A stretch of DNA of 64,000 nt from Muricea muricata (taxonomy: Eukaryota > Cnidaria > Anthozoa > Malacalcyonacea > Plexauridae), in NCBI GenBank assembly GCA_963855995.1, contig OY979717.1, forward strand, positions 48,249,744 through 48,313,743, given 5' to 3'. Of this stretch, positions 6,199-57,201 are shown one piece after another. Numbering within the stretch: the first letter of the stretch is position 1; each line of letters opens with the position of its first letter. The position numbers and the translations under genes are program-made. The notes beneath the pieces are model-generated. The model had not been told where the DNA came from. It saw only the letters and a list, made by a program, of their open reading frames with translations, and did not search any database.

Positions 6199-6201
6199 TT
6201 A

Positions 6202-6236
6202 GGGACGGAGCATTAGAAAAGTGAAGGGAGGGGTGG
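6202..6236 (+). repeat. Left terminal inverted repeat of the 8.66-kb transposon
   Basis: 35 bp beginning GGGACGGAGCATTAG and ending GGGAGGGGTGG. It matches the right end at 33 of 35 positions and is preceded by TTA. Confidence 0.85.
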
Positions 6237-6839
6237 GGAAAAAACAGAAAAAAATACATACAAGCATAAAAGTTTAAAAAAAAACAGGAAGGTTTTAAAA
6301 AAAAATTGCAAACAGAACATCAAAATTTAATTTTAATATTAAATTTACACAGTTCAACAAAACTGAAACAATTGATATATAAATAATGCTGTAAAACCAT
6401 AGAAAGCCCAATTCTGATTGTGGTTTCAGTAACATATAGAGATCAGTGCAACATATTTGTATTAGGTATGTCTATATTGAATTCCCTCTCTATATGCTAC
6501 AGCTAGTAGCCTCATTTCTACTTGCACGCCGTGTATTCGTTATATGTAAGCACCCTATTAAATGTATGGTATATAGCACATACAATACAATTAAGATAGA
6601 TTTTGTAGGCTATTTCATATTGGTGAACATTATGACAGCTGCAAGAAAATGTAAACAAGGCTTTATTGGTTATTCACAAACAAGCAAAATAACAAAAGTA
6701 CCAAAGAAAACTAAAGTAATATATGCATTTCAATATTAAACTATGTGTTAATTAACTTATGATGTTTTTTTATTAATATGTAAAAACATAGTTTGTATGC
6801 TAAATGTCTTGTATGTCTTACTTCTTTCTTTTGCATTTA

Positions 6840-7185
6840 CAATCCCATTTCCTTCTTCCACATTCACAATCATATTTCAATCTTCCACACTCACAATCCC
6901 ATTTTCTTCTTCCACATGTACAATCTCATTTCCTCCTTCTACACTCATAATCCCATTCCCTCCTCCTTCTACACTCACAATCCCATTTCCTTCTTCCACA
7001 TTCACCATCCAATTTCCTTCTTCCACATTCACAACCCCATTTCCTTCTTCCACGTTCACAATCCCATTTCCTTCTTCCACATTCACAATCCCATTTCCTC
7101 CTCCTTCTACATTCACAATCCCATTTACTCCTTCTACACTCACAATCCCATTTTCTTGCACATTCACAATCCCATTTTCCTGTTG
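6840..7185 (-). repeat. Minisatellite of about 27-bp units, coding-like on the minus strand
   Basis: About a dozen copies of a unit like ATTCACAATCCCATTTCC plus TTCTTCCAC, some with a 3-bp TCC insertion. Because unit lengths are multiples of three, minus-strand frames stay open: one reads GNGIVNVEE repeats, another KWDCECGRR repeats. It begins about 10 bp after the stop of the SAM gene. A one-base change in the A-run near 7220 would join it to that gene, so it may be a coding repeat tail or its 3' UTR. Confidence 0.7.
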
Positions 7186-7194
7186 TCTCCCACT

Positions 7195-8808
7195 TCATTT
7201 CAACTGACACTTTCTTGCCCTTTTTTTTTCATTCTTCATGTTTTGTTTCTTTCTTCTTTTGAAAATTTGTTCTGCCACACTGCTTCCATACTTCTTCCTA
7301 CATTGCTCCATTAATGCCTCATAATCGCCAACAATTTCAGTGATATAATTAATTGCTTCTTTCACTCTTGGAAATAATTCATTAAAAAATTCATTCTGTT
7401 CTTGAAAACCTGCCATTCAAATATAAAAAATACAGTATAAACAAGTGGATGACTGTTGCAAAGAACAATTTATAAATTCAATTATATTAGAAATAAATAC
7501 CAGTTTCATAATGTACACAACCAAAAGTCAGATCCTGTTGAAAACAGGATGCAACAATGCTGTTGGGGGCAACATTGTTCCTGGTTGTCAACAATATTGT
7601 TTAACATTGCTACACCTCATTGTGGACTGATTCAGGCTCAACAGTTTAATTGTTCAATATTGTTGACAACCAAGAACAATGTTGCCCAACAACACTGTTG
7701 CATTCTGTATTCAACAACCTGTGTGGCTGTGTAGTGCAAAGTTTCTTCAGTTTTAATATCTTGTAAATTGTTGATTTTTTTTATATTTGAATGCCACTCT
7801 AACCATCCAAGGAACCATACCCCCCCCCCCTTTATTAGCCCCCCTTTATCTGCCCAGTTGAATAGAATCCCCCTTTGGTTGACAGTTGTGTACTACTTCA
7901 TTGCCAGTGCCCAGTCAGACCACCCCCACCTGATACTGACCTTCTTTCACTGTTTTTCCATTTGTGCTTTCTTTCATTGTTCTTTCAATCTCATTTGTGC
8001 ATATGGTCAAGTTTTCATTTGCCAAAGAAAGAGCTTCTTGACACATTTCCAAAAACTTACAAACATGTTCGTGGTAGGTTTTCCCCGGATTATTAATGTC
8101 ATTTTCTTTCAACGCCACAATCTCTGGATAACAATTCTTTGCGATTTCTATACAACCATACACGCTTTGTTTTGTGTGATGAGGTGTCCAGCTGTTCATA
8201 GTTGGTGGCTTTGTTACTCCCATGAGCAACTTAATTCGTGTCCAGCGCTCCTTTCTGCACCAGTTCTCACAGTCCCGCAAACTTTTCGAGTACGTTAGAC
8301 GTTCTGTGGCCATTTTTAAGATGAAAGAATTTGAAAAAATCTGATTCGGTGTAACTGGAGATTGGTAGTACAGATTCCTAAACGTTCGCTTGAGAGATTC
8401 AGTGTTCACCACTGTGTGTCCATTGCCATCTCTAGTTTCAACAAAATTTCGCATAGCTTTTGGTAGTGCTATGACCACAGATGATGATGAAGTCTTGAGA
8501 GTTGTTTTTGAAACAAGGCTGCTCTTTCGTGCGTTCTCTTGTTGAGCTTTATACTCTGTAAAACACCGTAGCAGTCTCCGGGACTGAAACTTCGACAGTC
8601 CAAACGATAAGGCGTCCTCTTCCTGGACATCCTGAATATGTGAAACTTCAGTTAGTCCATTATTAACAAATGTTTGATAGAAGTTTTCCAATGATGCTTC
8701 CTTAAGCCATGACAAAAGAGAGTTTTTATCTGGTTCATTAATATTTATATCCTGTCTTGCTTCCGCCATTTTAGCTTTCATGCCAGGTTGCTCACAGCCA
8801 CTATCCAT
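7195..8808 (-). CDS. SAM-domain protein of the 8.66-kb transposon (two exons)
   Basis: Exon 1 runs 8808-7941 and exon 2 runs 7409-7195. The donor AAG|GTCAGT and the acceptor GCAG|GT keep phase (G + GT), giving about 360 residues. Upstream ATGs at 8808, 8781 and 8769 are all possible. I use the first that begins downstream of the facing gene's start. Near the N-terminus LLSWLKEASLENFYQTFVNN to RLLRCFTEYK is a sterile alpha motif (about residues 25-80), a protein-protein interaction module. The rest is helical and charged, with a basic tail (KRRKKQNMKNEKK). The intron holds a foldback repeat. The role is unknown; by position it may be an accessory partner of the transposase. The frame is intact. 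Confidence 0.7.
7530..7714. repeat. Foldback repeat inside the SAM-gene intron
   Basis: Arms at about 7530-7612 and 7640-7714 are inverted copies built on GCAACATTGTT and GGTTGTCAACAATATTG. It lies wholly in the 7410-7940 intron, so it would not disrupt the product. Probably a nested MITE. Confidence 0.7.
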
Positions 8809-8853
8809 AGATATAGAGCTCTGTGGTGTGACATATGACTGAATATTTACAAC
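8809..8853. promoter_or_regulatory. Divergent promoter region between the two transposon genes
   Basis: Only 45 bp separate the ATG of the minus-strand SAM gene (8808) from that of the plus-strand transposase gene (8854). The divergent layout implies a shared bidirectional promoter or overlapping 5' ends. No TATA box is evident. Confidence 0.45.
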
Positions 8854-11800
8854 ATGGCTGAGAGTGCTCTTGGACGCGGAAAAATCTGCAAAAGGCCATA
8901 CAAAGATACAAACACGAGTTTTGCTTTTAAACACGTCATTGTTTCAATGTGCAATAAAACAGTAGAAGTGCGACAAAACGAGCTAAAAGCCACACTGGAT
9001 CAAGGATCTGTTTCCGTTCAAGATTCTTTGGTTGCATTGTCAAGTGTCCTCGACGAATTGGTCGCAGCTGCGAATAAGTGCATGCCATTTATTGAGCTTT
9101 TTTACGAATATGCCGGGAAAGTGCCCCGCATAGCATGCATGCCTAACAAGAAAGATGCTCGTCAATTCAAAGATAGAATTTTATCAAAAAATGGATTGCC
9201 TGTCATGTTCTTAAACAATAGGGGCCACACATACGTAATGTTATTAGATCTTCCGCTGAATAACATTGCATTCTGTCGTAGTGTTGATTTTGTACTAGAC
9301 TGTGGAGGGTTGGCAGAAAATGAACAATTCGACTGGACAGTGATTGCTGGCCATGTTCCAACTTTAATGAAATTATTGTCAACCGCAAAAGGCAGGGCTA
9401 TTTTAGTGTTTGTCCTTTCCAGTATTGTTTCACCAACTAGATTGGTCCTGCTACTTGGCATGCCGCACCAGCACACCCAGACGGTCAAGAAAAAGGTTGA
9501 AAAATTTTTGAATGAGATGGAAGAAAAACAAGAAGAAGCAGAAAAAGAAAGTCAAAAACATATTAGAAGGTATTATATCCAGGCTGCAGATGGAAATAGA
9601 ACAAGATGCAAAGGATCTTAGTTCAAAAAGAATGAGGCTTGATGAGGAAGAAATTAAGAGTCGAAATGCCGATGTAAAGAGGAAAATACAAAGAAAGAAA
9701 AGACTCCAAGAGGATTCAAAGCAGAAAGCAAAGAAAAGGGTGGCACAGAGGCTGTTTAAAAACTGGAAGAAACAGCTTATATCACAGCAAGGAAAAGCAA
9801 AAGGCCGGTTCCGAATTGATCGGGGAGCGGAAAAAGCAATTTATGAAGTACTACAAGAGCAGTTACAAGCCCACAGAAGAAGATGGGGAGAGGAAGGAAC
9901 AGGTTACCTTGAATCCAGTCCAAAGAGATGCAGAGAATTGCAAATAGATTCCTTAAAAAGGCAGGTAAGAAAGTGGTGCTCTCAAAGGAAACAGTACGTT
10001 CTTGGGGAAAGTGCAGGAACAAACGATCTCGTCAATCAAAGCAACATCGTGGTTTGAATCTATGGGCGCACCTTCGGGCTGAAAAGAAGCAGCAAAACAA
10101 GCATATCAACATCCATTATAACCGTGCGCATATTAAGAGCTACACACGATTTGCATTTGGGCGCTCAAGTGTGGTTCATGGGAAGAACTTAGTTATAAGG
10201 CGAGCGATTGATGACAAGGCGTACATTCGATGTGGCACCTCGGAGGGCTTCTGCAGACCACTTCATACCCCTGTGCTGATCAATACTGATCCTAACAGCC
10301 AGTTCAAACTTCCAACGGCCGATTATCCAGATCCAGTAGGATACGTCTCCCCTGGTGTAATTTTACTTGTGAACAACATGAAAGAAACTGAACACAAGGG
10401 TAGTGATAAATTTGTATCTGATGGTGTTTCAATTTATGTTAATTGTAAACCAAAACATGTCTACCCTAGCACTGCCACCAACTGGTCCAATGACCTGTTT
10501 TTAGCTAGATATCGTTCTCAATATGAACACGAAATATCATTTGATGGCAATTCATGCAATTTGAATAAGGAGTGCCTTCTGGAAATTTCACCTTATCTAG
10601 TAGCAGTTAGAGACTCAATCTTTCAGTTTGAACTGATGACAATAAAGGAAGACTATGAGAAAGCAGCACAAGGAGGAGATCACCTGTCTCGGGAGTTACT
10701 GAGAGTCAATATACTTCTAAAAAGGCTAGGAGTTGCAGTGTCAAAGTTCGAAGAATTCAAACAACAAGCAACAATTGACAAAGTAATGACAGATCTTTCG
10801 CTTCTGATGGAACATTTGCAATGTCTCGGTTAGTATTACATATATACCTGTACATTTATAAACACTATGAAACCATAGATATATTCTTCTATATAATATT
10901 TTGCCTTCTAGATTCTTATCTCTGTGGCAAATTGTGGGACAAGATGGATACTAAGTGCCAAAATGTTAAAATCCTCTGCAAAGACATTCGTAAAACCATG
11001 GAAAGGATGGGTATCCCTCGACACAGGTACAAATTATTACTATTTTTATTTATAAATATATTAATCTAGCTACATATTATTATATAACCTAGCTTTGTTT
11101 TATATTTAAAAAACATCCTCCAATTTATACAGCGATTTCTGATGTTCATCAGAGTTTGCATTTTTCCCTAATTATATGATACACACATTTTAGTTAAAAT
11201 CATCTTTTTTGTCTCTTTTTAGGCCAGTTGACATACAGACATCGGATGCTTGTCCAGGGGTATCAAGCCATGAGCAGATGACCCAAATAAGAATGGCGGA
11301 ATACTTTATGATCAACTATTTAGATATCCAGAGCAGATTTCATTATGCCTCAGGAGATTCTAAGTCTCACATGGTTGAGCAAGTTATGAGGTCATTAAAT
11401 TAATATTTAGGGGATGGCCGGACCATTCCTGTTTCATCTGCTTCGTTCATTGATGATGACGGACAGTTTAAAATGACTGAGCTAAATAACGATGAATTAC
11501 AACGAGTTCAGAATAAAGAAGAGGCAAAAATTGCCAAGGGGTGTGCAGAAGAAATCAAGAAAAGATTCCAGGGAAAACAATGCATGGGAACATCCATTCA
11601 TGCTTTCAATCCGATCTATGAGCAACACCGTAATTTCTTCTTTGATGAATTGTATATGGCAAAGTGTGCAAATGCTAACTCTTCATCTCATCTTGAAAAA
11701 TGCGCTTGGCAGGCCTACTACAAGTTTGTGAAAGAGTTTTTCGATGTTCATTATCTGCTATACGATAATGGGTTTGAGGGTATTAGGAATGGTTGTATAG

Positions 11801-13918
11801 CAAAAAATGCAAAAAATGGTGAGGCCTGCAGCTTCCATTTATCAATTGAGAATGCAGAACAACTGTCAGATGGCTGGAGTGGCGTTCCTCTAGAGCGTGT
11901 TCCACCTCCAGTTCCAGATTACTCTGAGGAAGAGTTCCACTACGCTAAACCTGTGTTGAACACCTCATTACCGAAAAAGGATGAATTTTGTCCAAGGAAG
12001 AAGTTAGAAGAAGTAATTCTGTCATGTGGATCGCCAGATCTAGTCCTAACTGACGGTGCTGATAATTCAGTGCATTCAGTTGTTGACAAAAATAAAACCT
12101 TGCAGAAGATTATGTTAAAAGTGGATGACTTTGTCGCCAAATATGCCGGCCAAGATTTGCGAAACTCCGTCGTCATGGAGATACACCGTCGCTATAATGC
12201 AAAGGTCAAAGCCTTTGTAGTTGAGAAAACAAATCCAGTGCAAAGGCTGCAGAAAAAGCAAAGACGTATCGTGACTTTGACTGGGAGAGACTTGTGTAGT
12301 CAAACGAACTCAGTAGCCTCTACGTATCCCAGCTTGATTTGTACCTTATAAAGAACTTGAACACAAAAGCAAAGAAAATTGAAGCGGTTAAACAGCATTT
12401 TTATTCAAATACTAGGAAAGAGGTCGTGGCTGATACTACGAATCAAGCACCAAGAAATAAGATACATGTGGCCTTGCAGAATGACGTGTCAACCAAACTT
12501 TCCATGAATGTCATGCCTGCAAACTTGGCAGTTCCACCATGGGGCGGAGTTTTTGGTATTCCACTTTTGGTTTTTGGTGGACAAATTTCGTTGGTAAATG
12601 CATGTCCTATTGACAACTGTCTCACTATTTTCCATGTTTTGATAAAACAACACACGAAGTTCGCTCAGCGTCTGTCAACGTCAACTGAGTCGTATGCAAG
12701 GATTCTCATTGATAGGATAGTTAAAATGTTTGACAATGGCTACTTCGCAGAAGGAAAATGTGAGTGGTTAAAATTGTTCCCTGGCCGGTTTAACTTGGAA
12801 CAGCCTGGTCAGATAAATCTCTGTGGTAATGAAGAAGAACTGTTTGTGTCAAGAACTACATCTGCCCTAGAAAGTACATTCACAAGCGCATGTCCATCCA
12901 AGCACTGCCCGTCAAGAGTGAAGCAACTCTGTTCACAGGCCATAAGACTTAGGTAAAAGTTGTATGGTAAATTCACGTACCATTAATATATGGTATTATA
13001 TAGCTATAACGCTGTTTGATTGATATAATTTTTCTGAGGAAGTAATATCAAACTATTTTTCCTTTTAGTAATCCTAGAATACCATCTCCAGGTTTCCTGC
13101 AAGCATCGTTGTCAAACTGGATCAGCACAGATCAACACCCATCTCAATGTGGCCAACGATTGCAGGTAGTAGCTCTTAATGCTGACTATTTCCTGGGGAC
13201 ACATGTTTGCCAAGATTCCGTTACAGGCCACCTTGTGTAAGTAACGAAATAATAAGTAATCTTTCATACTATTTTCATATACTGCAGCTCAACATGAAAT
13301 TATTTTTGTGCAAAGCTAGCGAACATATTTTCTACCTACGTTTTCTTGACTACCTACGTTTTCACTAAATTCTATAAAACTAAAATCCGTCTTTCTGTGA
13401 AAAAGGCAAACCGTTCCAGCTTATTGCGGAGGAGCGCGGAAAAACGACAAGAGGACATTTATACGTGGTCCTCCCTCATTTCTTCTCATCTCTTTGGACC
13501 TTTTTGCACGCCAAGGGTAATAACTGATGTCTCTCAGCTGCCTCAAAAGGTAGAAGTGGCAAATGTTAAGTAAGTGAAGCTACAGCAGTCGTCTTTCATT
13601 AATATTAAAAAGTTGCGAAACTTTCGTACCATGATTTTGACTTTGTATATAATACTTCATATTTCAAGTGAAACAGACAATTTTACCTACTTTTATATTT
13701 CAGTTACCGATTGTTTGGGCTTACGTTTTGGAGCGGATCAAGAAGCCACTACAGAGGAGCTGTATTAATAAGTAGAAGCTGGTGGTACTATGACGGACTA
13801 TGGGAAAGGCACTGCAAAGGCCATGGGCTCCAGAAATGTAACCCATGTCCTTCAACTCCTGTTGACTTTCTTTTTTCCCACTGTGTCTATGTCAAAAATG
13901 ACCTCTTATATCAGGATT
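8854..13918 (+). pseudogene. DDE transposase with C-terminal cysteine-protease-like domain, multi-exon, broken
   Basis: Successive frames give a helical N-terminus, a lysine/arginine-rich coiled segment (9500-9750), KETVRSWGKCRNK, then a DDE core: IDDKAYIRCGTSEGF (about 10210), TSDACPGVSSHEQM in an exon from 11222, and SHMVEQVMRSLN, with 43 residues between the last D and E. Later NACPIDNCLTIF (about 12600) and SHYRGAVLISRSWWYYDGL (about 13740) resemble Cys and His boxes of ubiquitin-type proteases. Introns at 10830-10911, 11025-11221 and 12954-13069 keep phase. Breaks: frameshifts near 9570, 9925, 12270 and 13500, and TAA at 11401 right after the DDE core. Inferred role: transposase of this element. 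No superfamily assigned. Confidence 0.75.
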
Positions 13919-14164
13919 GAGTCGGTTTTACTAGTCAATGTACCACGGAATATAAACCAAGTTGATATTTATCTTGCACCTAGTATAGGATACATCCCTG
14001 CACAATTTATTGCAGATTACAACACAATCAAGTCGGTATCGTTTGTTCTTTCTCGGTATGTATTTGACTAAGAAACCTTCAACTGTTTGAGAAGCTGGGG
14101 GTGGCTTTTGAATTCTCCCAGGGGAAATCGGGGTTGATAAAAGAATAATGATTAGGAGAGTTTA

Positions 14165-14235
14165 TATGCAATCCCGGGGACTGTATATACAATCCCAGGG
14201 ACTGTATATACAATCCCAGGGACTGTATATCGACA
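14165..14235. repeat. Short tandem repeat near the transposon right end
   Basis: Two and a half copies of a roughly 24-bp unit containing GGGACTGTATATACAATCCC, itself partly palindromic. Subterminal position within the 8.66-kb element. Confidence 0.7.
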
Positions 14236-14298
14236 GCTTCTTAGCATAATTGCCATTCACGGCTCATTAGCTAACCTCCTTGATTGTGTTGTAAGTCC

Positions 14299-14400
14299 GA
14301 TACAAACCGAAGAAGGAGGTTGTAAGCTAGATAATTCCTAGCTTATCCTTATAAATCCTAGATTTATCTAGCTTACAACCTCCTTCTTTGGTTTGTATCC
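14299..14400. repeat. Hairpin with 34-bp arms
   Basis: Arms at about 14299-14332 and 14367-14400 (GATACAAACC, then AGAAGGAGGTTGTAAGC) pair with one mismatch around a 34-bp AT-rich loop. It could be a nested foldback element or a subterminal structure of the transposon. Confidence 0.7.
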
Positions 14401-14829
14401 TATACTTATATTATGAGGAAACGTCCTCAATCATGATAAAAGAGGGTTATATTATACCTCGAACATGAATTGATATAAAGAAGAGCAACAAATGTATACG
14501 TGTATATTGACTGATATCTTGACCGCTTCGCGGCGTGGTGTATTCAACAATAGTGACCCCGACTTCCTGGTATAATGATAACTATTTTGTTAGTAAAGTA
14601 TGATATGCCATGATACCCGAGTTGTTATTTGTAACATTCTTATTGGGTTTAAAGAATTATCGCCACAGTTCTGTGTCTTACGGTGTGCATTGGAAAATAC
14701 ATCTCAAGACAGCAAGTTTTATCACATGCAGTTGAATAAAAAAATATGCATGCAATGTAACATATCCATAAGAAAATTGCATACACGATTGACAACCTGA
14801 AAAAAATATGCAAACATAAAAAAAATACG

Positions 14830-14864
14830 CCACCCCTCCCTTCACTTTTCTAATAGTCCGTCCC
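14830..14864 (-). repeat. Right terminal inverted repeat of the 8.66-kb transposon
   Basis: Reverse complement begins GGGACGGACTATTAG and ends GGGAGGGGTGG. It is followed by TTA at 14865-14867. Confidence 0.85.
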
Positions 14865-14867
14865 TTA

Positions 14868-21380: not shown

Positions 21381-23786
21381 TTACTCCAGTCCCAAATTTT
21401 CTCTTGCTTTTAAAGACAATGTTTTGATTCTCCTTGGCCTGCTACTTATATTTAATGATGGTACTGTTTGCTGTTCGTCTTGCTTCTCATTGGTGTCAAT
21501 GGGAATGTTCCGCAACTGGACTCGGTTTCTTCTTACAACCATTGTAGGACTGTCTACCAGATATGATCTTGGTTTCTTTGATGGTGGTATTACTGTCTCT
21601 GTACAATCCATATCTGTGATGTATAATGTTGCTCCTGATGGTAGATGTTTTAATTGTTGGGCTCTGTGGCGATTGTCAAAGTTCTTTTTCTGCTTCGATC
21701 TGTACACTTCTTCCTTTTCTTTGAAGAGTTCCTGATTTGGCAGTTGTGGTATCAAATGTCGTGGTATTATTGGTATTGTTGACTTTATCTTTCTTCCAAT
21801 GAGGAGTTCTGCTGGCGAGTATCCGCTTGCTAATGGAGTTGACCTATATGCCAGCAGTGCTTTCGTTGGGTCTTTTTCCTTCTTCAGGATATTTTTCACT
21901 GTCTTTACCGCTCGTTCCACTTCGCCGTTCGGTTGTGGATACCTCGGGCTGCTAGTGCTGGGTTGGAATCTCCAATCCTTTGCAAACTGTGCGAATTCAT
22001 CACTATGATATTGTGGCCCATTGTCTGAACGGACCTCGTCCGGAATACCGTGCCTAGCAAATATAGTTTTCAGGGCTTGGATGATCTTTAGTGAGCTTGT
22101 ACTTTTAAGTAATGCTACAACTTCGACATAGCGGGAATAATAGTCGACCACAAGTAGATATGTAACCTTTTCTAGAATGAAAAGGTTGGTTGCAATCAGT
22201 TGCCATGGTCTTTCAGGTAGTGGCGTAGGCATCAGTGGTTCTGGATGCGGTTGTCTGTGCTTGCTGCATGTTGTGCAGTCTTCCACCATGACTTTAATTT
22301 GGGCACTGAATCCTGGCCACCAAACAGATATTTTTGCCTGTTCTCTGCATTTGTTGATACCTTGGTGACCTTCGTGAATTTGGTTGAGGGTATGGCGTTG
22401 CAAGCTGGATGGAATGACTAATCTTGTTCCTTTGAGCAGTAACCCATCGACAATGGTGAGCTCTCCTTGCACTGACCAGTAGGGCTTTACTGTAGGTGTA
22501 ACGTGATCTTTGTCTGGCCATTGATCCTTGCAGTATTTCTTTACTTCTTTACAGATTTCATCTTCATCTTGTGCCTTTTGAATTTCTTTTAATTTCGGAT
22601 TAGATGCTGGTAAGGCGTCGATCACACTTGAAATGTATGCCTTCATTTCATCTTCGTCTACGGTTGGTTGGACTGTACCTTCTGGTATTTTCCTCGACAG
22701 GGTGTCAGCCGTGTAATGTAATTTCCCAGGTATGTGTCGAACATCTTTGATGTTAAATCTCATGAGTCTCATTTTATAGCGTTGTAATCTTGGAGGTAAC
22801 TTGTCGATGGTATGGTTGGTTAAGAGAGGTACCAATGGTTTGTTTCCAGAGTTACTAACAGTGTCAAGGTATACAACTTCACCCAAAAAGTAGACATCTT
22901 CTTCAGATGAGCTTTCCTCCTCGGTTTCTCGACGGGAAGTTAGTTCATTAACTTGTTTGTTGCGTAGTTGTTGGTCAGGTTGACTTCGACATGCTTTTGC
23001 CCAGTGTTCCTTTTTTGAACAATTATTACAGATGGACTCACTTGCAGGGCAGGATTGTCTGGAATGCGCTTGTCCGAGACACCGCGAGCATCTGGGTTTG
23101 TCGAGTTTTCTGTCATTAGAATGTTTGTCACGCGAGTCGCGTGAGCCACGCGAGTATTGTTTTCTATTCTTAGAGATGTTATCAATGTTATTGTGCTCAT
23201 AACTTCCGGTGTATTTATTCCCGTGAATAATACTTTGTTGTTTTTTTATTTCCTCGTTTTGCCTAGCTTGAGCCATGGCTTTCTCTAAAGTAAGCTCCGG
23301 ATCTAGTTGCAATTTTTCAGATAACTTTTTGTTTTTCAGTCCGACAACGATGCGATCTCGTATTAACTGATCTTTGAGCACGCCAAATTCGCAATATTTA
23401 GCAAGACAGTGCAGGTCGGTAATAAAGTCTTCGACGGCTTCGTTTTCGTCTTGTATTCGAACGTTGATTTCGAAAATAACATTTCGTTTGCCAATGAAGT
23501 GGTTTTCAAACATATTTCGGACCGTTTCGTAGCTTTTCATCTCTTGTTCGCTCAGACCAAATGATGTTATTATGTCGTCTGCCTCGTCGCCCATAGTATA
23601 TATTAGCGCGTTGACCTGTTTAGCTTCCTCTTTCTTGTCGAGTTCTGTGGCAATTCTGAATCGCTCAAAGCGACGAATCCAACGGGTCCACTCCGAGGAT
23701 TTAAAGCTAAACTTTGACGGAGGTGTCACTTGATATGTGGTGAAACTTCGAGCGGTATTTACTTCGTCTGTTTCCGTTTCTGCCAT
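21381..23786 (-). CDS. In-frame gag-integrase fusion from the deleted Gypsy element
   Basis: 801 residues without a stop. Residues 1-230 are gag. Two zinc knuckles follow (about 233-266, the second CNNCSKKEHWAKAC). At about 313-317 the frame jumps to the C-terminal end of RNase H (VPLLTNHTIDKLPPRLQRY, then HIPGKLHYTADTLSRK). Integrase follows: HHCC zinc domain (about 470-507), catalytic core with N534 replacing the first aspartate, D588 and E624 (35 residues apart), and a C-terminal domain. The deletion kept the frame, giving a possible Gag-IN protein. The D-to-N change argues against strand-transfer activity. K02A2.6-like (Mag-type) sequence. Confidence 0.85.
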   Translation of the reverse strand: MAETETDEVNTARSFTTYQVTPPSKFSFKSSEWTRWIRRFERFRIATELDKKEEAKQVNALIYTMGDEADDIITSFGLSEQEMKSYETVRNMFENHFIGKRNVIFEINVRIQDENEAVEDFITDLHCLAKYCEFGVLKDQLIRDRIVVGLKNKKLSEKLQLDPELTLEKAMAQARQNEEIKKQQSIIHGNKYTGSYEHNNIDNISKNRKQYSRGSRDSRDKHSNDRKLDKPRCSRCLGQAHSRQSCPASESICNNCSKKEHWAKACRSQPDQQLRNKQVNELTSRRETEEESSSEEDVYFLGEVVYLDTVSNSGNKPLVPLLTNHTIDKLPPRLQRYKMRLMRFNIKDVRHIPGKLHYTADTLSRKIPEGTVQPTVDEDEMKAYISSVIDALPASNPKLKEIQKAQDEDEICKEVKKYCKDQWPDKDHVTPTVKPYWSVQGELTIVDGLLLKGTRLVIPSSLQRHTLNQIHEGHQGINKCREQAKISVWWPGFSAQIKVMVEDCTTCSKHRQPHPEPLMPTPLPERPWQLIATNLFILEKVTYLLVVDYYSRYVEVVALLKSTSSLKIIQALKTIFARHGIPDEVRSDNGPQYHSDEFAQFAKDWRFQPSTSSPRYPQPNGEVERAVKTVKNILKKEKDPTKALLAYRSTPLASGYSPAELLIGRKIKSTIPIIPRHLIPQLPNQELFKEKEEVYRSKQKKNFDNRHRAQQLKHLPSGATLYITDMDCTETVIPPSKKPRSYLVDSPTMVVRRNRVQLRNIPIDTNEKQDEQQTVPSLNISSRPRRIKTLSLKARENLGLE

Positions 23787-50606: not shown

Positions 50607-53600
50607 TCATCCATCCTTCCCATGCTTGTCAAAAACTTCGTGGAGATCACTGTATGTCAAACCAGAACCTGCAATTTTCTCAGCTACATTCTTTTTTATA
50701 AAGCCGTTCTTTGTGCGTGGATCAAACATGATTTCGTTAAAGGTTTGCATATTGTGATGGCGACGATCAAGGTATTTCATATCCTCGAGCGCGTGGTTTG
50801 TAGTTACCAGATGCGAATGATCAACGATCGTTCTTGTTGGCAGTTCAAGCTTAGATGAAAAAAGCATTTTTCGAAGAGCAAGGACATCTTCTAAGGAGTC
50901 GCGTACATCGAATGTTTCGTGAAACAATGCCTGGTAAAGAGACGATTGATTAAGTTTTGGAAATGTACCCTTTGTATTCTTTAATAGTGGATATTCACAT
51001 TTAACGAGTTCTTTGAACAATGGCAGAGAATTAGCGAACCAAACGTCCATCAAATGTAAACTACTTGCAAAACTTTCTCCAGCGCTTCTCAAAAGTATTG
51101 GAGTGTCGAAAGTTGCGACGTTGTGTCCAATAAGTACAGTAACTATGGGTTTGCTTGTTGTGGCTTTAGCTCGGTCAATTGACAGTGATATATATCTCTG
51201 GAGTTTGGTTAGGGCTTCATGGAAGGTATTAATATTTGTTTTTTAAAGAGCTTCCGTTCACCTTTGATAAGTCTTATTTCAAGATTGTTTACTCTCGAAG
51301 CAAAAAAATCGATGTCATTTGTTGGCAATACGTATTCTGAAAATCTATGCGAACCAGATATGTCACATACTGATAATTGGCATATTTGGGCAAGCTTGCC
51401 AGTCGTATTTGTTTCTGTGTCAAACATCAAGAAATTGCAGTTTTTGTTTTCGTCAAATTGGACTTTTTCTGCTAGTGCTCTAGGGGTATAAGGAAGTACA
51501 ATGTTCTCAATTTCTTTGAATTGTTCTGATGATATTTCTTGGGACTTTGCCTGTCCTAAGTTTTTGTTGGACTTAGTTGAGTTTCTGTTTGTGTTCATGT
51601 CTAGATTCAGTCCAACCCCTGTTTGGTAAGTTGTACCTTCCTTTGCTTCTTTTCTAGCTGTTTGTGCAGAACTGCTCAAGTGCTTTTGTATCCGTCTTTT
51701 GAATTTTATGGTAGATTTTCTACATTTATCTTTGTTTACTTTTGTGGTCATCTTTTCATTGTAATCTTTGCAAAATGTCCCAGGTTCAATATTGATTGCC
51801 TCCAATGTTCTGTCAACATAAGCATATCGAAGATTTCTTTGAGCAACAGCACATGCGACCCGAAAATCGTTGCTGTCACTACCACCGTAAAATCTAATTT
51901 TTGGATTTTTTATCTGACCACACTGTTAAGGGTTTCGTTCCTTTGCGAATTTGAACATGGTGCAACTTTGGTAACCACAGTCTCGGTATAGTCGTCACTG
52001 AATATATTAGTAAGTGCATTTTTAAGGCTTTCACCAAAAAGATCTTTACCGTGTGGAAGACTTTTATGCTTGTAATTGTTCAGGTCAAGTTTGTATCCAC
52101 ACCAACTTATTTTGCATTCTGTGTGGTCTCCAAATGCATGAGGTATAATGCATTCAATTGATTTTTTTATTTCTTCTGAGTTCCCTTTGTTTTGAGTTAT
52201 AGCATAGGAAAAGCATTTGACCAAGTAATTTATGGCCTTTTGGGATAATGTTGAACTGTTTGGAAATCTTGCATTTGGAAATCTTGTTTTAAGTTATATA
52301 GACGTGTAGTTAATGATCTTTTAATATGTACGATGTCACTCAGCTTCTCAACCTTGTAGCCAACTTTTTCACAACGAATGTGTGCTTCTGTTGTGGAGTC
52401 GTCATCTCCAGTATTTGTAGAGTACTTTACATTATGTTTAGGACCATTATTAAACAATTCTACTAGAGCAGAAGGTTCCATTACCTTTGAAGAATCTGTG
52501 TGATTTTTGCGACAGTCATGAGGTGTTACAGGGGCATTGTTTCTTTTAGCATGATCACAAAAGCGGCAGAATTTTGCTCTTGTTGTGTAGTCTAAGACTT
52601 CTGCTGTGGTCAAACTTATAACAGCAGCTTGTCCTGTCAAAGAATTGTGACCCTTTCCTCTTTTTTGCCAGCCCATGTCAAATGAACAAGGGACTGAGAC
52701 CAGATTGTCTTCATCACATTCAGCTGTGTTGGTCATGAGTTCATTTCGTATTGAGTTTGTTGCTTTTTCACAACTGTTCTTAGCAATTGCTTCAATAGCC
52801 TGTCCAACCTCTCTTCCTCTTTGTTTAAAAGTAATTGAATTTATTGTAGGTATGTTCATGCAAGATAAAATATTATTAATATGAGTTTGGCCAATACCAG
52901 CATGGAGGCAACCAAGAGTTACTCGTGTGTTTATATCAAATGCCTTTGGACCTCGATTGATCAGCCTTATTCAAATGACCACAGGATGGACAGCGGATAG
53001 TAAATGTACTGGCTAGGCCATTTCTCTTTTCATCACAAATATTGAAGGGCAAGTAACCTAGATAATTTAAATATAGTTTAGTTATATACTTTAGCTAATA
53101 GTTTGTTACATTTAGATAGTTTATTAATAACTAAAGGTTTATTTTCTACATTTATAGGTAGTGATTAGAATGATTTTGTAAACTGTTTTAAAAATATATA
53201 ATATGTTATTTTTGCAACCAAACTTTGCCTGAATAGCAATTGCTGCAATTTTCAAAACATTTCTGGAAGTGTTCCATATCTACAATTCTGCTTCCATGCA
53301 CATTTTTTTTCTTCAGAAAGAGAACCCTAAAAGTAAGTAAGTATATTGAAATGAATTTTTTAAGTATATTGAAATATTTGACTCTGTATTGCTAGTTTAC
53401 ATTACAAATAATATAAGCAAGTGGAATATCTTGTACTGTACCTTTTCACTTCTTGTTTGCCGTTTTGAAGGGGGTTCATTCTCGTCACATTCGTCAAAAA
53501 CAAGTAGTGCTGTGCACCGGAGCCGGAGGGCCGGAGCCGGAGTTTTGCCCTATTTTGCCGGAGCCGGAGCTGGAGCCGGAGTTTGTTCACCTCCGGCAAA

Positions 53601-55126: not shown

Positions 55127-55224
55127 AAATGATAAGCTGAGAAGGAGTCTTATTACGAGAAGACAAATTAACTTTACAGAAAGCGATTGAACTGTGTCAG
55201 ATAAGCGAACTGTCTGAACAAAGA

Positions 55225-57201
55225 ATGAAAGAGCTAGCTAGTACACATGAAGTGAATGAAGTAAAATATCCACGTCAAAGAGACCCGAGAAATCGACAAC
55301 GACAGCGACAGCAAACTGAAGAGAAACAACAGCAACAGCAACACCGGCATCAGCAGCGGCAAGCGTCTGGCTACAGAAATGAAAGCGGCAAGTCGCGACA
55401 ATCGGCTGAAAAAAAAGGCGAGGGGTATCGACAGAAATCGTGTACGTATTGTGGTAACGTACATAGACAGCGAAACTGCCCAGCATATGGGAAAGAATGT
55501 CGCGCGTGTGGTAAACTTAATCACTTTGAAAGAGTTTGTCGATCAACTGCGACTCAAGCAACGAAACAAAACCAGCAAATAAATACAGTATTAGAAGAAA
55601 AACAAGGCATTCAACCATTTCTTATTGAAACATTGGGTACATATAATATACAAACAGTTAGTCATGAGGCATTATATGTTACAGTAGAAGTGCACAGCAA
55701 GGCACTTAAGTTGAAGGTAGACGCTGGTGCTAAATGCAATGTGTTACCGAAACATATCATAGATTCGTTGAATATTTCTAACAAGATTGATTGCAATAAT
55801 CAGGTTAAGCTGGTTAGCTATAGTGGAAATACAATAGACACAACAGGCCAAATATACCTTCATTGCAAATACAATGGTGAAATTCATGAATTATTGTTTC
55901 AAGTTATAGATCAATCATTTGAGCCTTTAATAGGTTTACAAAGTTCACTTGATTTGAATGTTGTCACCATTAATAATGTGGATTCAGTATTACAATCTTC
56001 TAGTTTAAAAACATACAAGTCACATGATATTTGTACAGTTATAAGCAAGGCATATATTGGTCAACATTATAAGGATATCTTTGGCGCAGATCTTGGTAAA
56101 CTTCCCGTGGAGTATCATATGAAGCTAGATCCACAAGTTAAACCCGTTATTCGACCACCAAGACGAATCCCCGTATCTATGCAAGAGAAAGTTAAAGCGG
56201 AGTTGGAAAGAATGGTAAACATTGGGGTGATAGAATCAGTAACTGAACCAACTGGCTGGGTTTCCTTATTTGTAGCTGTAAAGAAGAAAGGAAAAGATGA
56301 AATCAGATTATGTATTGATCCAAGAGATCTCAACCATGCTATTCAGCGACAGCACTATCCAATGAGAACAATTGAGGAGGTAGCAGCACGAATTCCAAAT
56401 GCAAAGTTTTTTACCGTTCTTGATGCTTCGAGGGGTTTTTGGCAGATCCCTCTGGATTATGAATCTTCGCTGAAGACAACGTTTAATACTCCGTATGGTA
56501 GATATCGTTTTTGTCGTCTACCCTTTGGCATCAAGTCGGCATCAGAAGTATTTCAGAAGGCGATGGATCATCTTTTGGAAGGGTATCCGTGTGAAGTCAT
56601 TGTAGATGATATCCTAGTTTGGGGATCCACTGAAGCAGAGCACGACAGAAATCTCCTCAAAGTATTGGATAGAATTCGAGAAATCAACCTGAAGCTTAAA
56701 TGGGACAAATGCAAATTCAAAGTGAATGAGGTGGGGTATGTTGGTCACCTTTTAACTGCGGAAGGACTAAAACCAGATCCAGAAAAGGTTCGTGCAATAG
56801 TAGAGATGAAGATTCCAGAAAACGTAAAAGATTTGCAGCGATTTCTTGGTATGGTGCGTTATCTTTCTAAGTTTGTTCCTCGATTGAGTGAACTTGCTTT
56901 ACCACTGCAACACCTATTACATGCAGATGTACCTTGGATTTGGGATGGAGTCTGTCAAAGAGCTTTTGACAAGCTCAAAGCTGCGATCACTTCAACACCT
57001 GCATTAAAGTTCTACGATGTGAGTAAACCAGTCACGTTGACTTGTGATGCCTCGTTTGGTGGCCTTGGGGCCGCATGTTTGCAAGATGGTCTGCCGGTAG
57101 CATATGCTTCAAGATCCTTGACCAAAACAGAACAGAATTATGCGCAAATTGAAAAAGAACTTTTGGCTGTGACATTTGCGTGTAACAAGTTTCATGATTA
57201 A
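55225..57201 (+). CDS. Gypsy gag C-terminus, protease, reverse transcriptase and partial RNase H
   Basis: 658 codons. Zinc knuckles CTYCGNVHRQRNC and CRACGKLNHFERVC lie at residues 73-105. The protease motif is VDAGAK (D166; DAG rather than the usual DTG/DSG). The RT palm has motif A at TVLDASRGFWQIPL (D400) and VIVDDILVWG (D461-D462). RNase H starts at TCDASFGGLGA. TAA at 57199-57201 truncates RNase H; the frame resumes immediately beyond. It would copy element RNA into DNA if expressed whole. K02A2.6-like (Mag-type) clade. Confidence 0.9.
   Translation: MKELASTHEVNEVKYPRQRDPRNRQRQRQQTEEKQQQQQHRHQQRQASGYRNESGKSRQSAEKKGEGYRQKSCTYCGNVHRQRNCPAYGKECRACGKLNHFERVCRSTATQATKQNQQINTVLEEKQGIQPFLIETLGTYNIQTVSHEALYVTVEVHSKALKLKVDAGAKCNVLPKHIIDSLNISNKIDCNNQVKLVSYSGNTIDTTGQIYLHCKYNGEIHELLFQVIDQSFEPLIGLQSSLDLNVVTINNVDSVLQSSSLKTYKSHDICTVISKAYIGQHYKDIFGADLGKLPVEYHMKLDPQVKPVIRPPRRIPVSMQEKVKAELERMVNIGVIESVTEPTGWVSLFVAVKKKGKDEIRLCIDPRDLNHAIQRQHYPMRTIEEVAARIPNAKFFTVLDASRGFWQIPLDYESSLKTTFNTPYGRYRFCRLPFGIKSASEVFQKAMDHLLEGYPCEVIVDDILVWGSTEAEHDRNLLKVLDRIREINLKLKWDKCKFKVNEVGYVGHLLTAEGLKPDPEKVRAIVEMKIPENVKDLQRFLGMVRYLSKFVPRLSELALPLQHLLHADVPWIWDGVCQRAFDKLKAAITSTPALKFYDVSKPVTLTCDASFGGLGAACLQDGLPVAYASRSLTKTEQNYAQIEKELLAVTFACNKFHD

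Follow-up and report, generated by a model that had tools for sequence, protein, structure and literature searches.

A probable two-gene transposon of Muricea muricata with an ISAzo13-like DDE core, a USP-like domain and a SAM-domain partner

Fusions of a transposase with a protease have precedents in Ginger1 elements and in MULEs. As set out in the relevant passages of the Ginger paper, DDE transposases joined to OTU, Ulp1 or C19 domains were already known (PMC2836005). PIF/Harbinger elements are described, in the passages cited here, with TWA targets, terminal inverted repeats whose first base is usually A or G, and two open reading frames (PMC4482050), and the bacterial ISAzo13 family has been linked to Zator, both making 3-bp target duplications, in the section cited (PMC10045372). 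The present analysis concerns a stretch of 64,000 nucleotides from the anthozoan Muricea muricata (assembly GCA_963855995.1, contig OY979717.1, positions 48,249,744 to 48,313,743), hereafter the window, and an element of 8663 bp at its positions 6202-14864. This element is probably a two-gene cut-and-paste transposon that uses TWA (TTA or TAA) targets and that joins, in one protein, a DDE core akin to ISAzo13 and a USP-type, deubiquitinase-like domain, with a SAM-domain protein as partner.

The inverted ends, identical at 33 of 35 positions, the TTA on each side and the two divergent spliced genes between them, all reported in a preliminary description made from the sequence alone, were found again at the places given in Table 1. 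The left end reads GGGACGGAGCATTAGAAAAGTGAAGGGAGGGGTGG, and its pattern, with up to three mismatches allowed, occurs in the window only at the two ends, with none expected (100 shuffles). The two genes diverge from about position 8830; their exon borders follow GT-AG splice signals and homologues, and the introns are predicted.

The same description had looked to other copies with these ends and TTA flanks, and such copies exist. When the left 211 bp of the element were searched against the host assembly (453 Mb, 74 contigs), 18 matches were obtained at 12 loci, namely the window and 11 further loci (L019-L029), which were retrieved and scored for ends and flanking triplets. The first 32 end bases, at three mismatches or fewer, had nine matches in the genome vs none for a reversed control pattern. 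Paired ends with identical flanking triplets are present at seven of the 12 loci: TTA in the window, L019 (8311 bp), L020 (2139 bp), L021 (2825 bp) and L025 (1144 bp), and TAA in L023 (1079 bp) and L029 (1022 bp). The last two count as one insertion, since their flanks are common to both. They lie on contig C10 with the same TAA flanks, and more half-matches of those flanks occur on C10; thus, a single insertion multiplied as the DNA around it was duplicated. A paralogue about 80% similar to the L023 flanks (C10:4727340-4727640) runs from left flank to right flank with the element absent between them; it is too diverged for the target triplet to be read, and no fully resolved empty site was found. 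L020 and L021, on contigs C13 and C15, share an identical internal deletion junction (element positions 750 and 7509), and therefore represent a deletion derivative that moved in trans. A second full-length copy, L019 (C1:33052440-33060750), is 96.5% identical to that of the window over a 7.5-kb aligned block and is open through the predicted exons; a database protein (P0013) agrees exactly with part of its translation. The element is thereby confirmed as a member of a real multi-copy transposon family in M. muricata.

The long gene occupies 8854-13920 on the plus strand, in six predicted exons. IDDKAY, TSDACPG and SHMVE, previously read as a DDE series with D43E spacing, were located in that order, with 43 residues between the second D and the E by our own count, and the order is backed by colinear profile similarity to ISAzo13 (see below). 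The window copy is not intact and is dead: exon 3 has in-frame stops at 11401-11403 and at 12297-12299, and the frame changes four times, twice in exon 1 (near 9565-9581 and near 9911-9916), once in exon 3 (near 12235) and once in exon 5 (near 13515). In L019 the equivalent regions are open, exon 1 as a single frame at L019 3084-5090 and exon 3 at L019 5456-7231. Across the 306-codon DDE exon, the two copies differ by nine synonymous and eight non-synonymous codons.

Twelve proteins in public data, most of them unnamed, are 39-43% identical to the DDE region and cover 95-100% of its length, and the first D, second D and E are invariant in all of them. Seven also have the Cys box of the C-terminal domain (P0003, P0004, P0005 and P0009-P0012), and five have both the Cys and His boxes (P0003, P0004, P0009, P0010 and P0011). 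A piece of the C-terminal domain was also found in Oculina patagonica, which, like Paramuricea clavata (see below), is an anthozoan. The gene was not found in scans of viral contigs or prokaryote genome contigs, nor was the element end in a scan of viral contigs.

The E block of the DDE core is reminiscent of ISAzo13, and a probe modelled on that family retrieved annotated ISAzo13 transposases in plasmid records; seven sequences from the ten matches were usable, and three (L036, L037 and L038) were dropped for want of a usable open reading frame. An untrimmed profile of the DDE region compared with five ISAzo13 sequences gave E values of 0.0007 and 0.006, and its best local alignment placed the second-D and E blocks of the two in register. 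After removal of the insertion before the second D, the trimmed profile scored 36.8 against all seven, whereas 150 column shuffles averaged 15.3 and went no higher than 27.4; none of 60 further shuffles reached the score of the trimmed profile. This trimmed alignment is colinear through the helix-turn-helix (HTH) region, first D, RP..P, GYV block, second D and E, with DTKKKELVG in register on DDKAYLKCG and PYGVYD...GWVSVG on LPIYDFPE..GYVSPGV. By our own count, the ISAzo13 sequence L030 has a D(42)E spacing vs D(43)E in the element. A profile of IS5, to which PHIS elements are related among bacteria, was built from three sequences, two of them partial, and scored 16.6 (z 0.6), a value reached by 11 of 60 shuffles. 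For IS630, a three-sequence profile scored 15.2 (24 of 60 shuffles), and a four-sequence profile with one member in the wrong frame scored 18.4 (z 2.0; two of 60 shuffles). ISAzo13 itself scored 31.7 against the three-sequence IS630 profile. These control profiles are small, with three sequences each and some of them partial; thus, the comparison argues for ISAzo13 without proving other relations absent. A whole-protein profile searched against PDB gave 12 weak matches, mostly coiled coils or helical proteins by name and none a transposase.

Taken together, the comparison supports a distant homology of the DDE core to bacterial ISAzo13 and would place it on the ISAzo13/Zator side. The superfamily, called uncertain in the preliminary description, is thus less uncertain than stated, while Harbinger/IS5, an affinity tried and rejected because its small profile (three sequences, two partial) lies at noise, is not supported. 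The element resembles ISAzo13 and Zator in its 3-bp duplications and resembles ISAzo13 in the colinear HTH, D, RP..P / YD..GYV, D and E motifs. It differs in its protein, which has about 1400 residues and includes a middle region, a USP-like domain and, ahead of the second D, a large insertion, and in its second gene with a SAM domain; the comparison with Zator is by published description. The best reading is that the element is related to, but distinct from, ISAzo13/Zator, and the family is possibly a superfamily of its own.

The preliminary description had likened NACPIDNCLT and SHYRGAVLI to boxes of a cysteine protease, a view which is moderately supported and can be sharpened to the USP (C19) type. 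Seven members aligned over the C-terminal domain (A4) have in common NTC..DN.L, two pairs of cysteines, Y.L......H[FY] and W..YDGL; all seven rows keep, in order, the Cys, Asn, His and Asp together with the four zinc cysteines, across about 30% identity. When the A4 profile was searched against PDB with E up to 10, only four matches were obtained, all of them USPs: USP12 at 0.0084 and 0.021, and USP9X at 0.02 and 0.72. USP12 aligns in register at both the Cys box and the His-Asp region, and the USP9X match covers the second half of the domain. Likeness to these USPs extends over most of the domain (the NTC Cys box, zinc-ribbon cysteines, and a His box followed by W..YD), whereas the present domain is shorter, at about 260-320 residues, and has no Pfam match. 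The residue after the His is F or Y in seven of seven rows, which we take to be the gatekeeper motif of deubiquitinases. An aromatic gatekeeper motif is ascribed, in the section cited, to deubiquitinases other than VTD and ZUFSP (PMC9741609). The C-terminal domain may thus be assigned, with moderate support, to the USP type (peptidase C19) and regarded as deubiquitinase-like.

Ginger1 likewise carries a C-terminal ubiquitin/SUMO protease domain, of the OTU or Ulp1 type, but its DDE core resembles a Gypsy integrase and its duplications are CCGG- or CCGT-specific, as the source describes it (PMC2836005); the long-gene protein has no rve match in Pfam and a C19-like protease, and a Ginger1 reading was rejected on domain content. 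The Trichomonas protein XP_001314237.1, known here from its published description, also joins a DDE transposase to a C19 domain, but belongs to the transposase_11 family of a protist (PMC2836005). Helitrons with VTD or OTU domains share the habit of carrying a deubiquitinase, and the activity of the zebrafish Helitron VTD has been measured; they differ in having no DDE transposase, and VTD uses an Asp-x-His motif, according to the passages cited (PMC9741609). A VTD reading was rejected, as Asp-x-His is absent at the conserved His in A4, where the His precedes the Asp by about 15 residues. The CMITEs of corals, given in the source as having TTAA targets, are unrelated to the element (PMC2872659).

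The divergent partner gene carries a SAM domain, as had been proposed (SAM_TNK; Table 1), and no Myb/SANT match in Pfam. A search with the partner protein found 13 matching proteins, including the window's own and one from Paramuricea clavata (P0023), which retains exon 2 and an acidic repeat tail. The stop that closes exon 2 in the window, ahead of a 27-bp minisatellite, is absent from L019, where the frame extends over 1084-1650. A 33-bp inverted repeat (7567-7599 and 7655-7687; 97% complementary, 55 bp apart) lies inside the predicted intron of this gene and is possibly a small nested insertion.

Diverged relatives of both genes occur in the same genome. The following counts for the DDE exon and the SAM protein are lower bounds, and some DDE matches are pieces of one gene. 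The DDE exon has at least 52 genome matches: two are 97-100% identical, a second set lies at about 42-65%, and a broad fringe is found at 25-35%. In eleven fringe loci (26-31% identity; C1, C2 and C9) the open frames run to 400-960 residues, a sign that the genome may hold more families of this lineage. Strict motif counts over 31 stretches (30 of the 52 DDE matches and L078) gave the first D in 18, the second D in 19 and the E in seven, several of the stretches being fragments or overlapping and diverged members slipping past strict patterns. The SAM protein has at least 10 matches at eight loci (E up to 0.001). A listed DDE match lies 1.1-2.5 kb away at seven of these, and transposase sequence (E 3e-21) adjoins the eighth, L082 (C1:88334708). 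Linkage of the two genes, one of the points named for checking in the preliminary description, thus holds at every SAM locus found in the M. muricata genome, and in all eight the genes stand head to head. Four loci beyond these eight (L064, L072, L076 and L077) likewise have a SAM domain head to head with a transposase, here a diverged one of 26-31% identity. The SAM domain exceeds the Pfam cut-off in L064, L076 and L077 (L064 and L077 scanned as short pieces beside stops) and falls below it in L072 and L078 (22.5 and 22.1 bits vs 25). The relative L078, 51% identical in the DDE exon, has the order SAM (7299-8819), DDE (7000-4115) and USP-like (4217-2676), the same as in the window element, and keeps one end, TAA directly followed by GGGACGGACCATTA, the other end being lost. 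Since the pairing is also found at diverged loci, it is old in the family and was not captured by one copy. Judged from a reading of the flanking open reading frames (L078 3-2111 and 9245-10000), L078 probably interrupts a pol gene of Gypsy-like type.

A mechanism may be proposed from these features. The transposase would bind the GGGACGG ends, cut them with its D-D-E triad and insert the element at TWA. The SAM partner, which in L019 bears an acidic repeat tail, may self-associate through its SAM domain and could help assemble or hold the transposition complex. The USP domain might deubiquitinate either the transposase itself or host proteins of repair or chromatin at the break, and such removal would keep the complex from being degraded or displaced. 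In the passages cited, the Ginger authors proposed that such proteases activate repair factors (PMC2836005), and the VTD authors proposed a shielding of transposition proteins from degradation (PMC9741609). That the USP domain plays a deubiquitinase role is about an even chance.

At the sequence level, the transposon is borne out by its ends, TWA duplications, copies, deletion derivatives moved in trans and head-to-head SAM link. Several observations weigh against the interpretation given here. No Pfam DDE family matches the members or the consensus and no NCBIfam model matches the consensus; the curated ISAzo13 family models are among those without a match (Pfam for members and consensus, NCBIfam for the consensus). 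No Pfam peptidase family matches the protein either (NCBIfam was scanned for the DDE part), the Pfam model of peptidase C19 is not reached by the C-terminal domain, and phmmer of the protease part found no match in PDB. Therefore, both the DDE and the protease assignments rest on profile comparison and conserved residues. The ISAzo13 match becomes clear only once the insertion before the second D is cut out. An earlier six-row profile of the C-terminal domain (A3) reached a best E of only 0.48 in PDB, with one of its three matches not a USP, and the evidence for a USP is therefore moderate. Five of the 12 homologues (P0001, P0002, P0006, P0007 and P0008) lack the Cys box as deposited, which may mean that they are truncated or come from a lineage that lacks the domain. 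Equal triplets are missing at five of the 12 loci: L022 has two weak ends with differing triplets, L024 has one weak end, L026 has a single end with TTA next to it, and in L027 and L028 no element end reached the cut-off used. Lastly, TWA targets and ends starting with G are also traits of PIF/Harbinger, as that source gives them (PMC4482050).

Among the alternatives, the one that survives best is that the family already bears a name in Repbase, for example within Zator, and is missing only from the open literature. In its favour, the cited section gives 3-bp duplications and ISAzo13-like transposases for Zator (PMC10045372); on the other side, no Pfam model matches, and no publication in the open-licence literature, Repbase being outside the search, was found to describe this lineage of DDE proteins, a USP domain joined to it or a SAM partner for it. 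A prior name is possible, though we would lean against it. Less likely, but still to be reckoned with, is a real transposon whose C-terminal domain is a USP-derived module for binding ubiquitin or other proteins, or one that cleaves another ubiquitin-like tag. The low overall similarity to USPs (E 0.0084, or 0.48 with the smaller profile) would fit such a module, whereas the invariance of the Cys, Asn, His, Asp and zinc cysteines, and the aromatic residue after the His, in seven of seven rows speak for the deubiquitinase-like domain preferred here.

A PIF/Harbinger (PHIS) element with a diverged Harbinger DDE is very unlikely: it shares the TWA duplications, G-starting ends and two-gene layout described for that group (PMC4482050), but the IS5 profile (three sequences, two partial) is at noise, no Pfam DDE family matches, Pfam finds SAM and not Myb/SANT in the partner, and the element measures 8.3-8.7 kb vs a Harbinger average of about 4.1 kb. 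A non-autonomous element that carries both genes as passengers and is mobilized in trans by another transposase, the DDE-like motifs being fortuitous, would agree with the five of seven paired-end copies that are short and do not match the genes and with the lack of a matching transposase model, but is the least credible reading of all in view of the D, D and E kept by all 12 homologues, the colinear ISAzo13 similarity, the at least 52 genome matches, some with long open frames, the pair kept at eight of eight SAM loci and the same end on the relative L078.

Table 1. Positions in the window of the ends, target duplications and predicted exons of the element.
Feature	Positions	Strand	Remarks
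Target-site duplication TTA, left	6199-6201		Identical triplet on the right; equal TTA/TAA pairs at six further copies
Left terminal inverted repeat, 35 bp	6202-6236	+	33/35 identical to right end
27-bp minisatellite	6827-7184	-	Reads as acidic C-terminus of partner in L019
Partner exon 2 (predicted)	7195-7409	-	Splice sites; stops here, in L019 runs on into acidic tandem repeats
Partner exon 1	7941-8808	-	SAM_TNK domain in N-terminal third (Pfam PF22931, E 3.2e-10)
Long gene, exon 1	8854-10829	+	N-terminal region, HTH-like region, first catalytic D (IDDKAY, 10210-10212), most of insertion before second D
Long gene, exon 2 (predicted)	10912-11026	+	GT-AG borders; frame carries on that of homologues
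Long gene, exon 3	11223-12952	+	Second D (TSDACPG, 11245-11247), E (SHMVE, 11377-11379), middle region, Cys box (NACPIDNCL, Cys 12603-12605)
Long gene, exon 4 (predicted)	13069-13236	+	GT-AG borders, open frame
Long gene, exon 5 (predicted)	13406-13569	+	Last zinc-ribbon Cys; open in L019
Long gene, exon 6	13704-13920	+	His box (SHYRGAVL, His 13747-13749) and Asp (WWYYDGLW, 13792-13794) of USP-like domain
Right terminal inverted repeat, 35 bp	14830-14864	-	Inverted partner of left end
Target-site duplication TTA, right	14865-14867		Matches left TTA

Near the right end, about 386 bp (14020-14405) are present in the window copy and absent from L019, L020 and L021; within them lie 21-bp units in tandem (14158-14230) and a hairpin of 39 bp with 95% complementarity (14299-14399), and the whole looks like a later nested insertion. 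The neighbourhood of the element in the window holds retroelements, with an integrase open reading frame at 21384-23786 on the minus strand (rve, E 4.2e-15) and a reading frame with RVT_1 and RNase H domains at 55141-57195 on the plus strand. A Mutator-like transposase fragment lies at 52233-52967 on the minus strand (PF20700, E 3.4e-69).

In its fullest form, the proposal is of an undescribed, superfamily-level animal lineage from ISAzo13/Zator stock, whose transposase would bring its own USP deubiquitinase to guard the complex or edit ubiquitin at the break and whose SAM partner would be obligate; the chances of this whole are put a little below even. Ubiquitin/SUMO proteases recur in unrelated transposons (Ginger1, MULEs and Helitrons), with a role that is only proposed in the passages cited (PMC2836005, PMC9741609). 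In the M. muricata family the protease-like domain shares one polypeptide with the DDE core, has persisted through deep divergence and is encoded beside a fixed second gene; thus, the need of transposition for a protease becomes testable. The family would add an animal lineage that ties eukaryotic two-gene transposons to a bacterial IS family, and would allow a group of large proteins that stand unnamed in public databases to be named.

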